Source: Cloeon dipterum
Lineage: Eukaryota; Arthropoda; Insecta; Ephemeroptera; Baetidae
NCBI RefSeq assembly: GCF_949628265.1
Contig: NC_088786.1
Location: 8,246,001-8,310,000 of the forward strand
Reading direction: 5' to 3'
Length of the DNA stretch: 64,000 bases
Shown here: in pieces, positions 30,560-44,099 of the stretch
How the letters are laid out: each line of letters begins with the position of its first letter
Position numbering within the stretch: the first letter of the stretch is position 1
Translations under genes and position numbers: made by a program
The notes under the pieces: model-generated
Told to the model about the DNA's origin: nothing
The model's input: only the letters and a program-made list of their open reading frames with translations
Databases searched by the model: none

Positions 30560-31579
30560 AAATAATTGGTTTTAAAAATATGAGTAATTTCTAAATCTAC
30601 AATTTTTTGAAAGATTGTAAGGATTCAGTACAAAATAAATTTAGTGGGCATTTTTTTAATAATAACAGGTAGAGAATTTTTATTTAATGTCAAATTGCAT
30701 CACCCTCTGCTAAACAGAATTACAAAATGGAACGATATAATACGCTTTGAAAGACTGTTCGGCGGCGCAGCTTCCCTCGCTGTGCAAGACGTTTTACTTT
30801 ATGGATCGAATGTCACCCTCTCTTAGAAATGTTCCTATTTTCGATCAAATGACTGTTTTTTTAAATGAATATTTTATTAGAGGAAAAGAGAGAATAATCA
30901 ACTTTGATAAATTATTTTTGTAAATTAATAAAATTGTTTTAACACAGATTTTTTGCGACAAATTTCTTTGATTTTTGATCACTTTATTCGAAAATTTTCA
31001 AGTTTTTAAAATTATACTATGCCATTTACCGATCAAAGTAAGAAAAATTAATAATGAAAATATGGGCAATGCGGAAAATATTCGACTGTTTTTTAACTTC
31101 CGTTCACTATAAGCACGAAAATCCACTAGGACGCTATTTAAAACCTACTCAACTTCACAGCCCTGTAGAAATAATAGTTCAATCTCCATTTCTGAAATAT
31201 TTGTGATTTCTTATAATCTGTAAGATCCGAGTTTACACGTTTGCCGCCTGCTAAATGAATGTATATTATTTGCGTTGCGTGACTGTCCTGCCGGTTGCAT
31301 ATACTTCGTTTTCATTGGACTTTATCGCTGAACAAAACCACTCAGATGATGGGATTTGAAATATGTGTAAGAAAGCAAACATTTTCAGGGTTTTTTCCTT
31401 CAAACGCGTAAAAATTGCGAGAATTTAAAAATGGAATTTGCTTATGAAATGTAGAGAACTTACAGAATGTAAACACACCGATTCAAAAAATAATTTTGAA
31501 CCATAAATTGCCTTTCAGTCATTCTGCCTCTTTCAACCACTAGCATGACAGCCTAATCCGCTCAAATAATTGGAGAAAA
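30560..31579. other. Intergenic; holds a fragment also found at 38929-39140
   Basis: Between the ankyrin gene and the zinc-finger gene. 30743-30960 matches 38929-39140 (listed as a repeat). The remainder is AT-rich without coding features. Confidence 0.5.
30743..30960 (+). repeat. Duplicated fragment, copy 1 (left part of the tandem unit)
   Basis: This matches 38929-39140 over a GC-rich core. Both copies translate to a similar peptide: RFERLFGGAASLAVQDVLLY here, RFEKLFGGAVSLAVQGVLLY in the other. A shared AT-rich tail (ATAAATTATTTTTGTAAA, then GCGACAAATTT) follows. The core may come from a coding sequence or an element I cannot identify. It marks the left end of the duplicated C-type-lectin unit. 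Confidence 0.65.
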
Positions 31580-33299: not shown

Positions 33300-36200
33300 A
33301 TGAGGCAGATCTTGCACATCGCGCTCGTCGTATTTTTTTTAATTATTGTAAAATTTGTCATTTTTAAAGTTAAATATTTGTGTTAATAATTTCTTCTCAG
33401 TATATCTTCCCAGACTGCAATGGACGGAGAAGTTTACAGGGTCTTGTTTTTTATAGTTTTTTAAAAAAATTATTAGTTTGACCAAAGCTTACAGGTAGCA
33501 AGGTCATGCGAAGGAAAACAATAATAAAATGCTGCGGGAAAAAAAGTTGCCTTTCCGTAAGAAGGAAAACCCACCCGCGGAACATCACCAGGGAAACGAC
33601 TGTGATTTACAACGTTAAATTTATTACCAATTCAATTATTTTAGCAAAAATTAAAGGTTTTCAGCTCAAAACAAAGTCCATTTGAAGTCCAGAAGACGAC
33701 TGAAACGAGTGGTAACGTGATATTTTAATATAATAATTAAAAAAATCAGTGAGAGGGTTCGAAATGGCAACAGATGATGTGGAAATTGAACTAGGAATGA
33801 CTGATGAAACAACGCAAATTGACCCTGGTGCTGGCGTTGAAATTACCACCAATGTGCAAGAGAATTTGAAACAAGATGTTACTGCAGATTCTGGTAAAGC
33901 TTTTTTGTTGAGCTGACTTTTAAATACTCCTGCATCACCTTCAGCGACAACACCAGAAGTATCGAAAATTCCAATCTCCAAGGAAGCAACAAGCACCACA
34001 GAAAAACCCTTGGTAAATGACATGAAAAAATTCAACATCTTTATTTATTATATTTTTGATAGCCTGATGGGATACCAAGTTGCGGGCAACCCTTACTCGA
34101 TAGTTGTCAAACACAGGTTAAATACGATTTTTTAAACTACATATTGAATTGTTAAAAGCACGTTTGTTCGTAAAATTTATCAGGGGAAAGTTTTGCAAAT
34201 GCAGTTGGGTACAGGTATTATAGTTTTCAAAATTTCTGTTTCATCTGTTGATTTAAACATTATTTCCTCTAATTGTAAGATTCAACTGAAGGGAGGTATC
34301 TAAAATCATTCGGAAGGAAATATTTCATCAGCAATCTAAAAGTATGAAGGCATTTAAAAAGATAAAACAAAAATAATTTATGTGTGGTCGATAACAAGTT
34401 GAATGTGACGACGGCTAAAAGAGTGTGCTGTGCTCAGAAAATGCAGCTCTTAAGCATCACGTCTGCCTCAGAGCATCAATATGTGGCTTCACTGAATGGT
34501 ACGTGCTTTTTCAGCAAACCTATTGGTCAAATTAGATTTTGAATTATTGTAGACGTTTTGAAACAATCGGCAATGACATACTGGACAAGTGGAACTGTTG
34601 GGAAAGGAGGGAGCTTTTGGTGCTCATCGGAACAACTGGTTCCGATTCCAAATAATTTGAACTGGCTGCAAAAAAACGCTTCCAATCCAAATTCGGAATT
34701 TTGTCTGACATTTGAAATGAACGTTGGTGATGCCTCGAAGAGCGGTCTCAAGTTTGCAGATTGCAATGCGGAAAAACTCTTCATTTGCGAGGTTGAACCA
34801 AATAATTTATTTACCTGCACGCCTCAATAACTAATTTTCAGACAACTGAACCAACATGCCCAACCCCAGCAATCTCTAAAAATGTAAATAGTGGATAATT
34901 ATTACGCAGTTGTAAATTTTTAATGTTGCAATAGACCGCCATGTTTGATGAGGACGGCAATATTTTAAGTATATGACCACAGATAATGATGTCGCTTTCG
35001 ACTGTGTCGACATTTAAAACGACACATTAATGTTTCACAGCTCCACAAGTACATGGTATATGGGAAAACGGCGCAAATGCCACGTTTCTCTTTGGATTTT
35101 CCCTGGCCACTTGGTCTGAAACTTGGAAAGAATGCTCAAAATTTGGCATGATGCCTCTGTCATTTTCTTCAAAAATTGAATTAGACTTTGTTTTCGATCT
35201 TCTCGGAGGTGAATGATTATTTTTATTTTCAAAAGTTAACTCTTAACCTACATGATAATTGTTTTATTTTTTGCATATTAAATAATTTTAAAGGTTGGGG
35301 CAGCAGCATTAATTACTGGACCGCTGGCACTCGAGAGGACTACGCGACGAAGGGTCCAGTATGGTGTACAGATCGAGCAGAAATTAACAAGGCTGTCGTT
35401 CATGTGCAAAACGCCGCTAACGAGTCGATAATGGGAAAATTCGATTGCATTGCATTTTTGGTCAAAAAAATCGCTACAAATGTTTTGATTACGTTTGACG
35501 GATCATTCGATTTTCGGAATTGTAGTATTAGACAATTTCTAGCCTGCAAAGTGAGACAGTTTATTTGAACTCTCGTTGATTTTTACTGAAAATATATCTA
35601 GGGCCCTCTGACACCAAAACCATCTTTCTTTAGACAGACGTGCCCTAGAAACATTGCAAGAAATGTATATAAATTTCTAGCATGTATTATACAGGTCTTT
35701 AAAAAAACTGTTTTCAGTTATCTCTATTCAACTTATCAACAGGATTTTTAAACGGTATAAAATGCCTAAATATTTTGAACTGTTTTAAACGTTGAGTTTC
35801 AGAACCATCTTCGTTTGGTCAATGGGTGTCAAAATGCAACAAATTCTTTGTTATTGCGGATCCGACGACGGATCAGACCAATGAAACAGTAAATTCACGG
35901 AAAATTCTCCTTTCTTCTATTTAAATCGAACTTTTTTATCTCATTGTCAGGTGAAAATCACTTGGGACGAGGCCCGCAAAAGGTGTAATAGCATCGGGTT
36001 CAGGCTGATCAGTTTCGACTCCAGGGAAAAGTTCGATTGTCTCGTGAACGTGTCTCAAAACAATCTGGCGCCCTTCTGGACCTCTGGCGCCTATCTCGAC
36101 TGCAAAAGCAGCACGAAGTACGTGTGGTGCGGCAGTAACCGCAACCTCAACATGAACGACGTCGTTTGGGACAAAAATCAGCCTCCGCAATCCGCAACTA

Positions 36201-37918
36201 AAACTTGCATTAGCGGAGTCTTCAATTTGCAAACGGGCGTTTCCCTTCAGGCAGTCGACTGCGATTCTAGTTTGTCATTTATTTGCGAGGTAAATCAAAA
36301 TATTAGGCAAACTAATTCAATATTGTAATTTGTAATACATGGTTAGCAAAAATACTTTTATTTTATGTGCTTGCAGAACTTATCTTTTTTATAAATTTCC
36401 AATGCACAGGCTGATAATACTGAAGGCCATAGTTTGGCCTACGCAAAGTACGAGCAGTGCCAGATACTTTTACAAGTGTCAAAAGGTATAACTTTACTAT
36501 CACTATCAGTTGTAAACGCTATATGAAATTAACGAAATTAATGATATCTAGCTGAAGTGGACTCTCTTTTCTTAGGCCTAAGTTTGTCTTCGAAACTTAA
36601 AGTATTTAATTAGAGATTTTTACTTTAAAATTATGATGTGAAATTTCTCAGTGCTACATGAGATGCTTGGGCGAGAGTTTAAGTTTGGTAAACATCAACT
36701 ATAAAAGAAGGCAAATCCATTTCCTGTGTTTGACTTTTTAGATCGACTCCAACGGGAGGATTGTCGATTTAGCAATCATCAATCTCATTCAATCAGTGGT
36801 CATGAGCGTGGAGCAAGTGGAAAAAAGCTTTGACATACTTAACATTTGCAAAAATCTTAGCGGTATGAAGTAATTCAATTGACTACTGCAATTGATTTCG
36901 TGTTAAAATAAATTAGGAGCTGATGCATGTGAATCGGAGGCCCGCATATTCGAGTGTGGAATGCAGAGAGCCCCAGACAAAATATATGCCATGGTCACCT
37001 ACTCCGTAACTGATTTTCAGGCAGGTCTTCCACGATATAAAATCACCACATATTTTGATATTTGTTGTTTAATTTACGTCAATTCACGTTGAAATAATAT
37101 TTTTTGGTTTGTTTCAAAACTACAGACGGCGCCATTAATTGGATATCCAAATGATTCTTGTCCCTATGACGTGTCAACATGCACTTTAAATGCAAGTGAT
37201 GTGATATCTAGAATCCTTTTCAAATTCCTAAAAATGAAATTTCGGAAATTTCAGGCTACTGCTGCTGATAATGTTGCAAACAACAAGAGTGAGTGATGAT
37301 CAGTTTTCTTTATTTTATAATAAACTGATTGTGAAATAAAAATTGGTTTTTGCTAATTTTCAGCGGTTGATGGAATGCTCTATTTTGTTGAGGCGTGCGG
37401 GAAAAAGTACCAGGTGTCAGAAGAATCTGTAAATATTTACATTTTAATTGTTATATTTACAAATTTGACAAATATTTCAATTGGTAGAAGAATTATGCTG
37501 ACGCTGCTCGCAAGTGTTGCGAAATGGGCATGACTCACGCATATTTCAACTCTTACGATGATTTTAAGTGTTTCTTAGCTGCAGATGAAGGTTATTTTTT
37601 TATTTTGTTATAGAAATCTATAATCAATATTATACTCATAACACTATTTTTATTTGTAAAACGCTCTTTATTGCAGCCTTGAGCAAATCGAGGGCTGGAA
37701 AGCAGTACAGTGTTTCAGTCTATGCGGGCCGATCGTTGCCCATTTTTACCTGGTGTCCAAGCAAGGTTCCGGTGGAAATCGGTTTCAAGTGGGGCAGACA
37801 ACTGAATGCTCTGGTTAACAAGTGCGCCTATATTGGATGCAACAACACTTTCTTCCTTGAGCCGCTCGTCCCAGTCGCCTGTGACACCGAGATGCAATTT
37901 ATTTGCATGAGCGTGTAG
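33300..37918 (+). CDS. Secreted multi-C-type-lectin protein with embedded OBP domain, copy A
   Basis: Many small exons. A signal peptide (MRQILHIALVVFFLII, 33300-33347) precedes a Cys-rich basic segment (33495 on) and a Thr/Ser/Glu-rich linker (about 33740-34017). Then come CTLD1 34280-34791 (ends WTSG...FICE), CTLD2 35041-35550, CTLD3 35803-36289, an odorant-binding-protein domain 36458-36957, and CTLD4 37364-37918 (ends FICMSV). Each CTLD shows the usual WTSG or similar strand and closing Cys pairs. None shows the EPN/QPD-WND calcium-sugar motif, so sugar binding in the classical way is doubtful. Insect lectins with several CTLDs act in immunity or matrix. Phases agree across the exons I could trace; the junctions around 33560-33720 are not settled. 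An AATAAA sits at 38085. Confidence 0.88.
36458..36957 (+). other. PBP/GOBP-type odorant-binding domain inside lectin gene A
   Basis: The joined exons between CTLD3 and CTLD4 show six cysteines with classical OBP spacing: C1-x25-C2-x3-C3-x42-C4-x8-C5-x8-C6. The hallmark KLKCYMRC holds C2-x3-C3 and is followed by LGESLSLID. The motif ACESEARIFEC holds C5-x8-C6. Known OBPs are small helical carriers of hydrophobic ligands secreted as single-domain proteins. Here the domain sits inside a larger secreted lectin chain. Confidence 0.85.
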
Positions 37919-38928: not shown

Positions 38929-39140
38929 ACCCGCTTTGAAAAACTGTTCGGCGGCGCAGTTTCCCTCGCTGTGCAAGGCGTTTTACTTTACGACTCAAGT
39001 GTGGCCCTCTCCTCAAAATTAAATTTGCGACCAACAATTATGATTTTGATCGTGAATTTACCCTACAAAATAAGAGAGAATATTCAACTTGGATAAATTA
39101 TTTTTGTAAAATAATTAAAATGGCAACACAGATTTTTCGC
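38929..39140 (+). repeat. Duplicated fragment, copy 2 (left part of the tandem unit)
   Basis: Second copy of the fragment at 30743-30960. It sits directly before the second lectin-gene unit. The first copy is separated from its lectin gene by about 2 kb carrying the zinc-finger gene. Here only about 370 bp separate it from the ATG of the lectin gene. Confidence 0.65.
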
Positions 39141-39509
39141 GACAAATTTATTTTTTAGATAACCGAAATTTTTAATTTTTTTGGAGCAACAACAGCATTT
39201 ACCGATTAGAGCAAAAAACAAATATTGTTTACATATCTGTAACCATTACTGAAATGTATAGAAAGATTTGACCGATGTTTTAATCTCGTGAAAATCACAA
39301 AACTATATCAATGTCTATACGAGTCTATAGAACAAACGGTGGTTGAACGCAGGTGGTTTTAGTTTGTTAAAATGGTAGTGAAAAACTAGAAAACGAGTGT
39401 TGCACACGCCATCATACCTATAAACGTTTCCTGCAGATGCAGAAATTGTTTACCTGTTTCCTGATTCTAGCGCAGTGCTCTCATGATTGAAGCGAGTTGA
39501 GCTTCAAAA

Positions 39510-42500
39510 ATGAGGCTGACACTGCACATCATGTTCGTCGTATTTTGTTTAGTTGTAAAATTTGTCTTTTTTAAAGAAAAATATTTGAGTTATTAAATTT
39601 TTCTTAGCATTTCTTCCCAGCCTGCGAAGGACAGAGAAATTTAATAGGTATTATGCTTTTTTATGTGCATCATTACTTATTGACCAAAGTCTACAGGTAA
39701 TAAGGTCAGGAGAAGGAAAATAATAATAAGATGCTGTGGGAAAAAGAGCTGCCTTTCCGTAAGAAGGAAAACCCACCCGCAGAACATCACCAGGGAAACG
39801 ACTGTGACTTACAAAGTTAAATTGATTACCAATTCATTAACTTTAGCAAAAATTAAAGATTGGCAGCTCAAAGCAAACTCCATTTGAAATCCAGAGGACT
39901 ACTGAAACGAGTGGTAACGTGATATTTTTATTATAATATTTAAAAAAGTCAGTGAGAGGGTTTGAAATGGCAACTGATGTAAAAATCGAACTAGAAATTA
40001 CTAAGAAAACAACGCAAATTGACCCTGATGCTGGCGTTGAAATCACCACCAAAGTGCAAGAGAATTTGAAACAAGATGTTACTGCAGATTCCGGTAAAGC
40101 TTTTTTATTGAGCTGACTTTTAAATAATCCTGCCTTGCCTTCAGCGACAACACCAGAAGTATCGGAGATTCCAATCTCCAAGGAGGCAACAAGCACCACA
40201 GAAAATCCCATGGTAAATGGCATGAAAAATTTAACAATCTTTATTTATTATATTTTTGATAGCCTGATGGTATACCAAGTTGCGGGCAACCCTTACTCGA
40301 TAGTTGTCAAACACAGGTTAAATAAGATTTTTTAAACTACATATTGAATTGTTAAAAGCACGTATTTTCGTAAAATTTATCAGGAGAAAGTTTTGCAAAT
40401 GCAGTTGGGTACAGGTATTATAGTTTTCAAAATTTCTGTTTCATCTGTTGATTTAAACATTATTTCATCTAATTGTAAGATTCAACTGAAGGGAGGTATC
40501 TAAAATCATTCGGAAGGAAATATTTCATCAGCAATCTAAAAGTACGAAGGCATTTAAAAAGATAAAACAAAAATAATTTATGTGTGGTCGATAACAAGTT
40601 GAATGTGACGATGGCTAAAAGAGTGTGCTGTGCTCAGAAAATGCAGCTCTTAAGCATCACGTCTGCCTCAGAGCATCAATATGTGGCTTCACTGAATGGT
40701 ACGTGCTTTTTCAGCAAACCTATTGGTCAATTAGATTTTGAATTATTGCAGACGTTTTGAAACAATCGGCAATGATATATTGGACAAGTGGAACTGTTGG
40801 GAAAGGAGGGCGATTTTGGTGCTCATCGGAACAATTGGTTCCGATTCCAAATAATTTGAACTGGCTACAAAAAAACGCTTCCAATCCAAATTCGGAATTT
40901 TGTCTGACATTTGAAATGAACGTTGGTGATGCCTCGAAGAGCGGTCTCAAGTTTGCAGATTGCAATGCGGAACAACTCTTCATTTGCGAGGTTATCCCGA
41001 CATATTTATTTACCACGTCTCAACAAATAATTTTCAGACAATCGAACCAACATGTCCAATTCCAGCAGTCTCTAAAAATGTAAAAAGTGGTTAATTTTCC
41101 CACTGTAATAAAGTTTTGACTTTCATTAGACTGCCATGTTTGACGAGGACGAAAATTTAAAATGTATGAGCATGATGACGTCGTTTTAAACTGTGTTTTT
41201 CCGTTGTTGACATCAATATAACGACACATGATTTACAGCTCCACAAGTGCATGGGATATGGGAGAACGGCGCAAATGCCACGTTTCTCTTTGGATTTTCC
41301 CTGGCCACTTGGTCTGAAACTTGGAAAGAATGCTCAAAATTTGGCATGATGCCTCTGTCATTTTCTTCAAAAATTGAATTAGACTTTGTTTTTGATCTTC
41401 TCGGAGGTGAATGATTATTTTTAGTTTCAAAAGCTAACCTTTAATCTTCATGATAATTGTTTTCTTGTTTGCATATTAAATAATTTTAAAGGTTGGGGCA
41501 GCAGCATTAATTACTGGACGGCTGGCACGCGAGAGGACTACGCGACGAAGGGTCCAGTATGGTGTACAGATCGAGCGGAAATTAACAAGGCAGTCGTTCA
41601 TGTCCATGACACCGCAAACGTGTCGATAATGGGAAAATTTGACTGCATTGGGTTTGTGGTCAAAAAGGTCGCCACAAATGTGACGGTAACTTTTGACGGA
41701 TCATTCGACTATCGAAATTGCAGTGATAGACAATTTCTAGCCTGCAAAGTGAGACAGTTCAATTTAACTCCCATTGATTTTTACTGAAAATATGGAAAAT
41801 ATATCTAGGGCGCTCTAACACCAAAACCGTCTTGCTTTAGACAGACGTGCCCAAACAAGTTTGCAAGAAACGTACAAAACTCAGTATTCTTTATCTCTTT
41901 ATCAAAAAAAAAATCTGTTTTCAGTCCTCTCTATTCAACTCAACAACAGGCTTTTTATCCGGTGAAGAAATAGAAATGCCCAAATATTTTGAACAGTTAA
42001 TAAAGCGTTGAGTTTCAGAACCATCTTCGTTTGGTCAATGGGTGTCAAAATGCAACAAATTCTTTGTTATTGCGGATCCGACGACGGATCAGACAAATGA
42101 AACAGTAAATTCACGGAAAATTCTCCTTTCTTCTATTTAAATCAAATTTTTTTATCTCATTGTCAGGTGAAAATCACTTGGGACGAGGCCCGCAAAAGGT
42201 GTAATAGCATCGGGTTCAGGCTGATCAGTTTCGACTCCAGGGCAAAGTTCGATTGTCTCGTGAACGTGTCTCAAAACAATCTGGCGCCCTTCTGGACCTC
42301 TGGTGCCTATCTCGACTGCAAAAGCAGCACGAAGTACGTGTGGTGCGGCAGTAACCGCAACCTCAACATGAACGACGTCGTTTGGGACAAAAATCAGCCT
42401 CCGCAAGTCGCAACTAAAACTTGCATTAGCGGAGTCCTCGATTTGCAAACGGGCGTTTCACTTCAGGCAGTCGACTGCGATTCTAGTTTGTCATTTATTT

Positions 42501-44099
42501 GCGAGGTAAATCTAAATATTGGGCAATTAACTTAACATTGCTATATTGACAAGCAATACATAATTGTTTATGCTTTTGGATTTAATCTTATATTTTATTT
42601 TCCAACAAACAGGCTGAAAATACTGAAGGTCAAAGTTTGGCCAACGCGAAGGACGAGCAATGCCAGAAGATTTTCAACGTGACAAAAGGTTATTGTTTTA
42701 TTAATTTAATTTCTGAACTGTTTTTGATAATTATGATATGTAGCTGAATTGGACTTGGTATTCTCAAGCCTAAATTTCTCTCGGAACCTTAAAGTATTTA
42801 AATTTTAAGTTTTGCTCTGTTGAATGTTGTTGTGAAATTTCTCAGTGCTATCTGAAATGCATGGGCGAGAGTTTGAATTTGGTAAAAACCGATTAAAACA
42901 GCAAATACATTTCCTTGAGACGTTTTTTACGTCTTTTAGATCGACATTAACGGCATGACTATTGACTTTGCAATCATCAACCTCATTCAAGCAGCGATCA
43001 GAAACGTGGTGGATGAGGAAAATGGCTTTGACGTATTTAACGTTTGCAAAAATCTTGGCGGTAAGAAATAATGTCCATAACTGAGATTATTTCATATCAA
43101 AAATAAAAAAGGAAAGGGGGAATGTGAAGCGGAGGCTCGCTTGTTTAGGTGTGGAGTGGAAAAGGCCCCAGAAAAAGTGGCAGCTATGATTGACTACGCC
43201 GTGCATGATTCACCAGTAGGTCATCTAAGATGAAAAATGGACACATTTAGAAAATTGCTGTAGTAAATTTTCAGTGGGTTTGATTTGTTTTAAAAATTAC
43301 AGCCGGCACCATTCATTGGAAGTCCAGATGATTTTTGTCCCTTTGGCTTATCGACATGCACTTTAAACGCAACTTGATTTTTCAAATCCTCTCAAATTCC
43401 TAAAAATGAAATTACAGGCTACTGCTGCTGATAATGTTGCAAGAAACAAGAGTGAGTGATGTTCACAAACTGGTTTTCTTCTTTTTTAATAACTTGACCG
43501 ATGAAATATAAATTGGACTTTTTCTCATTTTCAGCGGTTGATGGAATGCTCTATTTTGTTTCGGCGTGTGGGAGAAAGTACCTAATGTCCGTCGAATCTG
43601 TAAATATTTAACATATAGGTTTGATGTCTCTCCAAAACTTGAAAAATATTTCAATTGGTAGAAGAACTATGCTGACGCGGCTCGCAAGTGTTGCGAAATG
43701 GGCATGACTCACGCGTATTTCAACACTTACGACGATTTTAAGTGCTTTTTAGCTGCAGATGCAGGTAATTTTTTATTTTGTTAAAAACTCTACAATCATC
43801 ATGGATAGTAACACCATTCAAATTTTTTAATATACAATTTAACGCTTTTTGTTGCAGCCATAAGCAAATCGAGGGCTGGAAAGAAGTACAGTCTGTCGGT
43901 CTATGCGGCCCGGTCATTGCCCATCTTTACTTGGTGTCCAAGCAAGGTTCAGGTGGAAACTGGCTTCAAGTGGGGCAGACAACTCAATGCCCAAGCTAAC
44001 AAGTGCGCCTACATTGGATGCAACAACACTTATTTCCTTGAGCCGCTTGTCCCAGTCGCCTGTGACACAGTGATGCACTTCATTTGCATGAGCGTGTAG
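39510..44099 (+). CDS. Secreted multi-C-type-lectin protein with embedded OBP domain, copy B
   Basis: Tandem paralog of the 33300 gene at an offset of about 6.2 kb, with the same exon order: signal peptide (MRLTLHIMFVVFCLV), Cys-rich segment, Thr/Ser linker, CTLD1 40480-40990, CTLD2 41239-41748, CTLD3 42019-42505, OBP 42661-43152, CTLD4 43535-44099. CTLD1 and CTLD3 are almost identical to copy A. The OBP domain and the linker before CTLD4 are the most divergent. One donor seen in copy A (after CTLNA, GCAA|GTGATG near 37195) is missing here (GCAACTTGATT near 43370). Unless another donor is used, that exon reads into a stop, so copy B may need alternative splicing or be impaired. An AATAAA lies at 44276. 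Confidence 0.85.
42661..43152 (+). other. PBP/GOBP-type odorant-binding domain inside lectin gene B
   Basis: All six cysteines are present in the same spacing class as copy A: C1 at 42661, then NLKCYLKC (C2-x3-C3), NVCKNL (C4) and ECEAEARLFRC (C5-x8-C6, ending 43152). The domain differs from copy A at many residues while keeping every Cys, as expected if the fold is under selection. Confidence 0.85.

Follow-up and report, generated by a model that had tools for sequence, protein, structure and literature searches.

The locus described here raises the question of whether an odorant-binding protein (OBP) signature that lies between the exons of C-type lectin domains (CTLDs) is a gene in its own right or part of one larger secreted protein. 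OBPs are normally stand-alone; they are viewed as small free carriers, and their number is used as a measure of chemosensory capacity. The window analysed is a stretch of 64,000 nucleotides (C1:8246001-8310000) from the 190-Mb genome of the baetid mayfly Cloeon dipterum, and positions given without a contig are those of the window. A preliminary description had placed OBP exons between the third CTLD of one gene, here called gene A (CTLD3, ending at 36289), and the fourth (CTLD4, starting at 37364), and the exon map bears this out.

Gene models were built from the DNA alignment of gene A with its tandem neighbour, gene B, before any annotated protein was used, with exon ends set by the donor consensus. 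In these models each gene has 25 exons, splice sites and phases correspond between the two, and the encoded proteins, of 870 (A) and 869 (B) residues, are open throughout. Exact spliced alignment of the RefSeq protein LOC135934020 (P0001, 948 residues) places gene A at 33300-37918 on the + strand in 29 exons. The 21 exons that run from CTLD1 through the stop codon are identical in the DNA-derived model of gene A and in LOC135934020, GC donors included, and the differences lie in the N-terminal exons and in two residues of the linker before CTLD1. The start of the gene had been put too far downstream: it lies upstream of 33764, with the signal-peptide exon at 33300-33347. The features of gene A are as follows.

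33300..33347, + strand: exon 1, signal peptide MRQILHIALVVFFLII, from the spliced alignment and called by eye (gene B counterpart at 39510-39554)
33401..34012, + strand: exons 2-6, N-terminal region with the IIKCCGKKSC motif and a Ser/Thr-rich stretch, from the spliced alignment
34063..34791, + strand: exons 7-11, linker and CTLD1, from the spliced alignment; the best PF00059 stretch
34842..35550, + strand: exons 12-15, linker and CTLD2, from the spliced alignment, with homology and the structural model
35602..36289, + strand: exons 16-19, linker and CTLD3, from the spliced alignment; NQPPQ replaces the QPD of other members
36410-36485, + strand: OBP exon O1, with C1; phase 0 in, 1 out
36552-36601, + strand: O2; phase 1 in, 0 out
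36652-36687, + strand: O3, with C2-x3-C3 (CYMRC); phase 0 in, 0 out
36742-36862, + strand: O4, with C4; phase 0 in, 1 out
36917-37020, + strand: O5, with C5 and C6; phase 1 in, 0 out; GC donor CAG|gcaggt (GT in gene B, CCA|gtaggt)
37126..37288, + strand: linker exons L4a (37126-37191, GC donor) and L4b (37255-37288), in the same phases as the linkers before CTLD1-3
37364..37918, + strand: exons 27-29, CTLD4 and the stop codon, from the spliced alignment; dN/dS against gene B 0.16

The predicted protein thus consists of a signal peptide, an N-terminal CCGxxSC motif, a Ser/Thr-rich stretch, CTLD1-3, a six-cysteine PBP_GOBP domain and CTLD4, and no membrane segment was noted in it by eye. Two short linker exons, of phases 0-0 and 0-1, stand in front of each CTLD. 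The OBP exons O1-O5 form a phase 0-0 module that comes after CTLD3 and ahead of the ordinary linker pair of CTLD4. The shared strand and fitting phases reported earlier for the OBP region hold through the whole of gene A. GC donors occur in two of its introns (after 37020 and after 37191); the donor after O5 is GT in gene B, LOC135948142 and LOC135942195, as is the donor after L4a in the latter two. The same phase 0-0 module was found in the four Cloeon genes that were mapped exactly (a fifth locus, L024, was left out).

The six-cysteine signature had been read correctly from the DNA, since the spacing C1-25-C2-3-C3-42-C4-8-C5-8-C6 is exact. The profile search that had been proposed as a check matched PF01395 to the spliced 129-residue OBP part with an E value of 2e-9, its 38 bits lying above the cut-off of 22, and to the long spliced protein at 3.1e-8. 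A chance arrangement of OBP-like cysteines is ruled out by PF01395 matches in many members of the family. In PF01395 score, in cysteine spacing and in belonging to a secreted protein, this part resembles the classic six-cysteine insect OBPs; it differs from them in being an internal module, between CTLDs, of a 948-residue protein, without a start, signal peptide or stop of its own, whereas OBPs are small stand-alone secreted proteins with their own signal peptides. The gene A part qualifies as an OBP domain but does not amount to an ordinary OBP gene. Mosquito D7 proteins of the saliva, which contain two OBP-like domains and no CTLDs, likewise place the OBP fold in a larger secreted protein.

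Genes A and B form a tandem pair that can be aligned over 5.9 kb at 81% identity. A 74% repeat has one copy before gene A (30743-31045) and one before gene B (38932-39218). Gene B comprises the following.

39510..43374, + strand: gene B, RefSeq model LOC135934124 (P0003), with a signal peptide, three CTLDs and an OBP domain; TGA stop in the L4a intron
42613-42688, 42744-42793, 42846-42881, 42940-43060 and 43112-43215, + strand: OBP exons O1-O5 (PF01395 5.1e-9, 36.7 bits)
43418..44099, + strand: L4b and CTLD4 exons, open and conserved, outside the RefSeq model

The L4a donor of gene B would be GC-ACT, and the RefSeq model reads through it to a stop, without CTLD4. Over 43303-44099, CTLD4 has been dropped by RefSeq even though its exons are open, which would be either a recent loss or missed splicing. 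Against solved OBPs, the OBP part of gene B gives a weak sequence match (best E 0.0015).

Comparison of the two genes revealed that their parts have diverged unequally. Identity is 92-98% in the exons of CTLD1-3 and 91-97% in the introns within these domains, against 75% in the OBP exons and 60% in the OBP introns. The near-identity of CTLD1-3 (34063-36289 and 40263-42505) looks, from the alignment, like gene conversion between A and B that stopped at the end of CTLD3. In the OBP part dN/dS is 0.74 (0.49-1.21), compared with 0.16 (0.08-0.26) in CTLD4. As dS is alike in the two (0.38 and 0.40, respectively), the OBP part evolves much faster, although its frame and cysteines have been kept between A and B. 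The raised ratio could reflect relaxed constraint. That gene A is a pseudogene peculiar to the window is ruled out, the gene being intact and its CTLD4 constrained.

Protein searches identified P0002, P0003 (gene B) and P0005 as the Cloeon fusions besides gene A, together with four from Neocloeon triangulifer (P0004, P0006, P0007 and P0008), which have the same CTLD-OBP order. Besides the tandem pair, the fusion is shared by two annotated loci in other parts of the Cloeon genome. All eight multi-domain fusions (P0001-P0008) exceed the PF01395 cut-off, and seven of them retain the six OBP cysteines, C3 being absent from P0008. P0009 has CTLDs with no OBP match, and P0010, a partial model, was the only protein found when an OBP part was searched alone. 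These searches require shared five-residue words and so are no proof of absence in other taxa. In the tree, whose root is arbitrary, P0005 groups with P0006 (100/100) and P0004 with P0001-P0003 (100/99); P0007 and P0008 form long branches of unsure placement. Since both groups mix the two genera, the fusion is older than the split between Cloeon and Neocloeon, both of which are Baetidae. An inverted pair of closely similar fusion genes lies about 97 kb apart on another Cloeon contig (C4:31.081 Mb, + strand, and 31.178 Mb, - strand); the gene at 31.081 Mb fits LOC135942195 exactly, and the O3-O4 intron is missing at this site.

The N-termini of P0001-P0009 have in common an I-[IV]-x-CCGxx[SK]C motif ahead of the Ser/Thr-rich stretch, which possibly has a role in disulfide multimerisation. 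The fraction of Ser, Thr and Pro across residues 61-170 of these proteins is 0.33-0.52, and each of P0001-P0008 carries 11 to 21 N-glycosylation sequons.

As to the lectin-like part, a PF00059 search had also been suggested, and its outcome was mixed: gene A scores 46 bits against a cut-off of 22.6, with two stretches passing and the other two of the four CTLDs falling below the Pfam cut-off. A predicted AlphaFold model based on a 10-row family alignment has a mean pLDDT of 57.9 and a whole-model pTM of 0.35; the CTLDs lie mostly at 50-85 and the OBP part, in which helices alone are modelled, at 36-49. Owing to the low confidence in that part, we do not count the model towards an OBP fold or pocket. 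A Foldseek search with the whole model gave CTLD structures, both tandem and single, at E values from 3.2e-15 to 5e-6 among the best 50 rows, in agreement with a CTLD fold for the model taken as a whole. The matches include the mannose receptor, PLA2R and Endo180 group, which, as in gene A, has several CTLDs in one extracellular chain. That group consists of membrane receptors that also contain CysR and FN2 domains; gene A differs in the OBP domain inserted in its chain. The QPD and EPN sugar motifs are absent from P0001-P0006, which include genes A and B, and QPD is found in P0007, P0008 and P0009. The term CTLD therefore denotes a fold, not sugar binding, in gene A, so that the 'lectin' domains of the preliminary description stand in the structural sense and not in the sugar-binding one. 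Tethering mediated by sugars is doubtful for P0001-P0006 for the same reason.

We then asked how far the association extends through the genome. A six-frame PF01395 search returned almost nothing (one place at E 0.001 and four at up to E 10), probably because the exons are short, and protein queries were used instead. The queries were the OBP parts of fusion proteins, and hits were picked by hand, at least one per place and some as weak as E 5, with the other exons of places already taken omitted. The 161 hits obtained, including two PF01395 places, were merged into 157 OBP-like places, a set biased towards fusion-type OBPs because of the origin of the queries. The CTLD list comprised at least 232 hits, from which repeats had been removed by hand. 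For at least 139 of the 157 places, a CTLD hit precedes the OBP-like match on the same strand by no more than 2.5 kb (median distance 514 bases); among the matches listed, no place has such a neighbour downstream or on the opposite strand. Random placement (200 trials, with estimated lengths for C2 and C3) gave a mean of 0.285 and a maximum of 2 out of 157. Known fusions (gene A, gene B and the P0002 locus) are among the 18 places without a CTLD hit in the matches listed, and a Lectin_C hit lies upstream at C5:3171512. CTLD hits with no OBP neighbour also occur among the CTLD matches listed. Four Lectin_C hits of identical score on the - strand of a further contig (C2:6339498, 6352950, 6366483 and 6380016) are spaced at about 13.5 kb, as in a recent tandem array or an assembly repeat.

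Regions of contig C5 were consistent with this pattern. All 17 (some of which overlap) contain same-strand CTLD exons upstream of the OBP part and no antisense hit, and the OBP part reaches E 0.01 or better in nine and is weaker in eight; a QPD or EPN lies within the matched CTLD segments of 15. At two further loci, OBP exons joined by eye matched PF01395 at 1.4e-12 and 6.9e-12. One place, C3:3625495, is a probable stand-alone OBP; used as a query it found only itself below E 0.3, giving no contrast class of stand-alone OBPs. The fusion first reported as a single case is thus upheld, and its scope had been drawn too narrowly: by position, gene A appears to be one of well over a hundred CTLD-OBP loci in this genome.

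The claim that no CTLD-OBP fusion had been described agrees with the literature as judged by titles and the beginnings of abstracts, where none was found among the matches listed; PMC5381652 and PMC8418000 contain the paired terms. In its available portions, PMC7250882 gives 191 OBP genes for C. dipterum, the largest OBP repertoire reported by 2020, from which a chemosensory role of the gills was proposed. Of the 152 OBPs assigned to expression clusters there, 121 belong to four clusters that are nymphal or pre-nymphal, and gill expression is given for 82 of 167. No word beginning 'lectin' occurs in the main text as available. Those 191 genes and our 157 places concern the same species and the same Pfam-type family and are of a similar order of number, but the former are described as OBPs, whereas here we find OBP domains within CTLD proteins. 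Judging from the numbers and positions, much of the published expansion may be this fusion family. The accessible part of PMC13205551 reports 10 OBPs of 135-252 residues in the heptageniid mayfly Parafronurus youi; these are likewise mayfly OBPs and, unlike gene A's OBP domain, have their own signal peptides, and the main text there also contains no word beginning 'lectin'. The accessible part of PMC11597413 contained no match for the four terms sought.

Taken together, the DNA-derived model, gene B, the phase 0-0 module and the RefSeq models of two genera all support the earlier proposal of one secreted CTLD-OBP-CTLD protein rather than two genes, and gene A is almost certainly a single predicted gene of this architecture. 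The alternative is a separate OBP gene, nested among CTLD exons and wrongly joined by gene prediction; OBPs are, after all, usually stand-alone, and the RefSeq models of these genes are predictions. However, the introns are short (120 bases before O1 and 50-105 for the next seven), no start codon precedes O1 in its frame, which closes just before the exon, the gene A frame continues into the linker and CTLD4, the same domain order recurs in two genera, and a same-strand CTLD accompanies at least 139 of 157 places. Given the intron sizes, the closed frame, the phases and the order shared across genera, we consider a nested gene to be effectively ruled out.

With regard to function, the types of domain, the secretion and the contrast in evolution between the OBP part and CTLD4 suggest a tethered ligand carrier. 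A phase 0-0 OBP exon module would have been inserted behind CTLD3 of a gene with several CTLDs before Cloeon and Neocloeon separated, and the resulting family would then have grown in Cloeon to, judged by position, well over a hundred loci. The CTLDs and the stalk may anchor the protein to nymphal surfaces or within an extracellular coat. The OBP domain would meanwhile bind small hydrophobic molecules and diversify, so that the members of the family might serve as ligand carriers that are tethered and exposed to the surrounding water. This mechanism, taken by itself, we rate at a little under even odds; for architecture and mechanism together, weighted to the architecture, our estimate is about 70%.

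Two other functions deserve consideration. The proteins might serve secreted pattern recognition in immunity or at barriers, the CTLDs binding microbial surfaces and the OBP domain binding microbial or host lipids, in which case the expansion and the fast change of the OBP part would stem from conflict with microbes and not from chemosensing. Large CTLD families are often immune, and the rapid evolution of the OBP part would be in keeping with this, as would the sugar motifs in P0007-P0009 and in most of the C5 regions; the absence of these motifs from genes A and B argues against it, and the nymphal and gill expression given in the available text of PMC7250882 fits either reading. On balance we think an immune role rather unlikely. 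Alternatively, the stalk and degenerate CTLDs could be the scaffold of a structural coat, mucus or adhesive in which the OBP domain is a ligand-free, disulfide-rich spacer. The lack of QPD and EPN in P0001-P0006, the missing C3 of P0008 and the abundant sequons would all suit such a material, but six cysteines are kept in seven of eight fusions while the remaining OBP sequence changes fast, and we regard this explanation as improbable.

Returning to the tethered-carrier reading, we think it probable that the 191-gene set is mostly a baetid CTLD3-OBP-CTLD invention, that is, a tethered-carrier system of more than 100 genes rather than a set of free odorant carriers. The record OBP set belongs to an early-branching winged insect, and if most of it consists of domains in large CTLD proteins, the OBP count needs to be read again; the argument for olfaction by the gills and the automatic annotation of OBPs in mayflies would need the same. 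In addition, the family provides many natural variants of a binding domain on a conserved scaffold, so that a tethered-carrier function would be directly testable.
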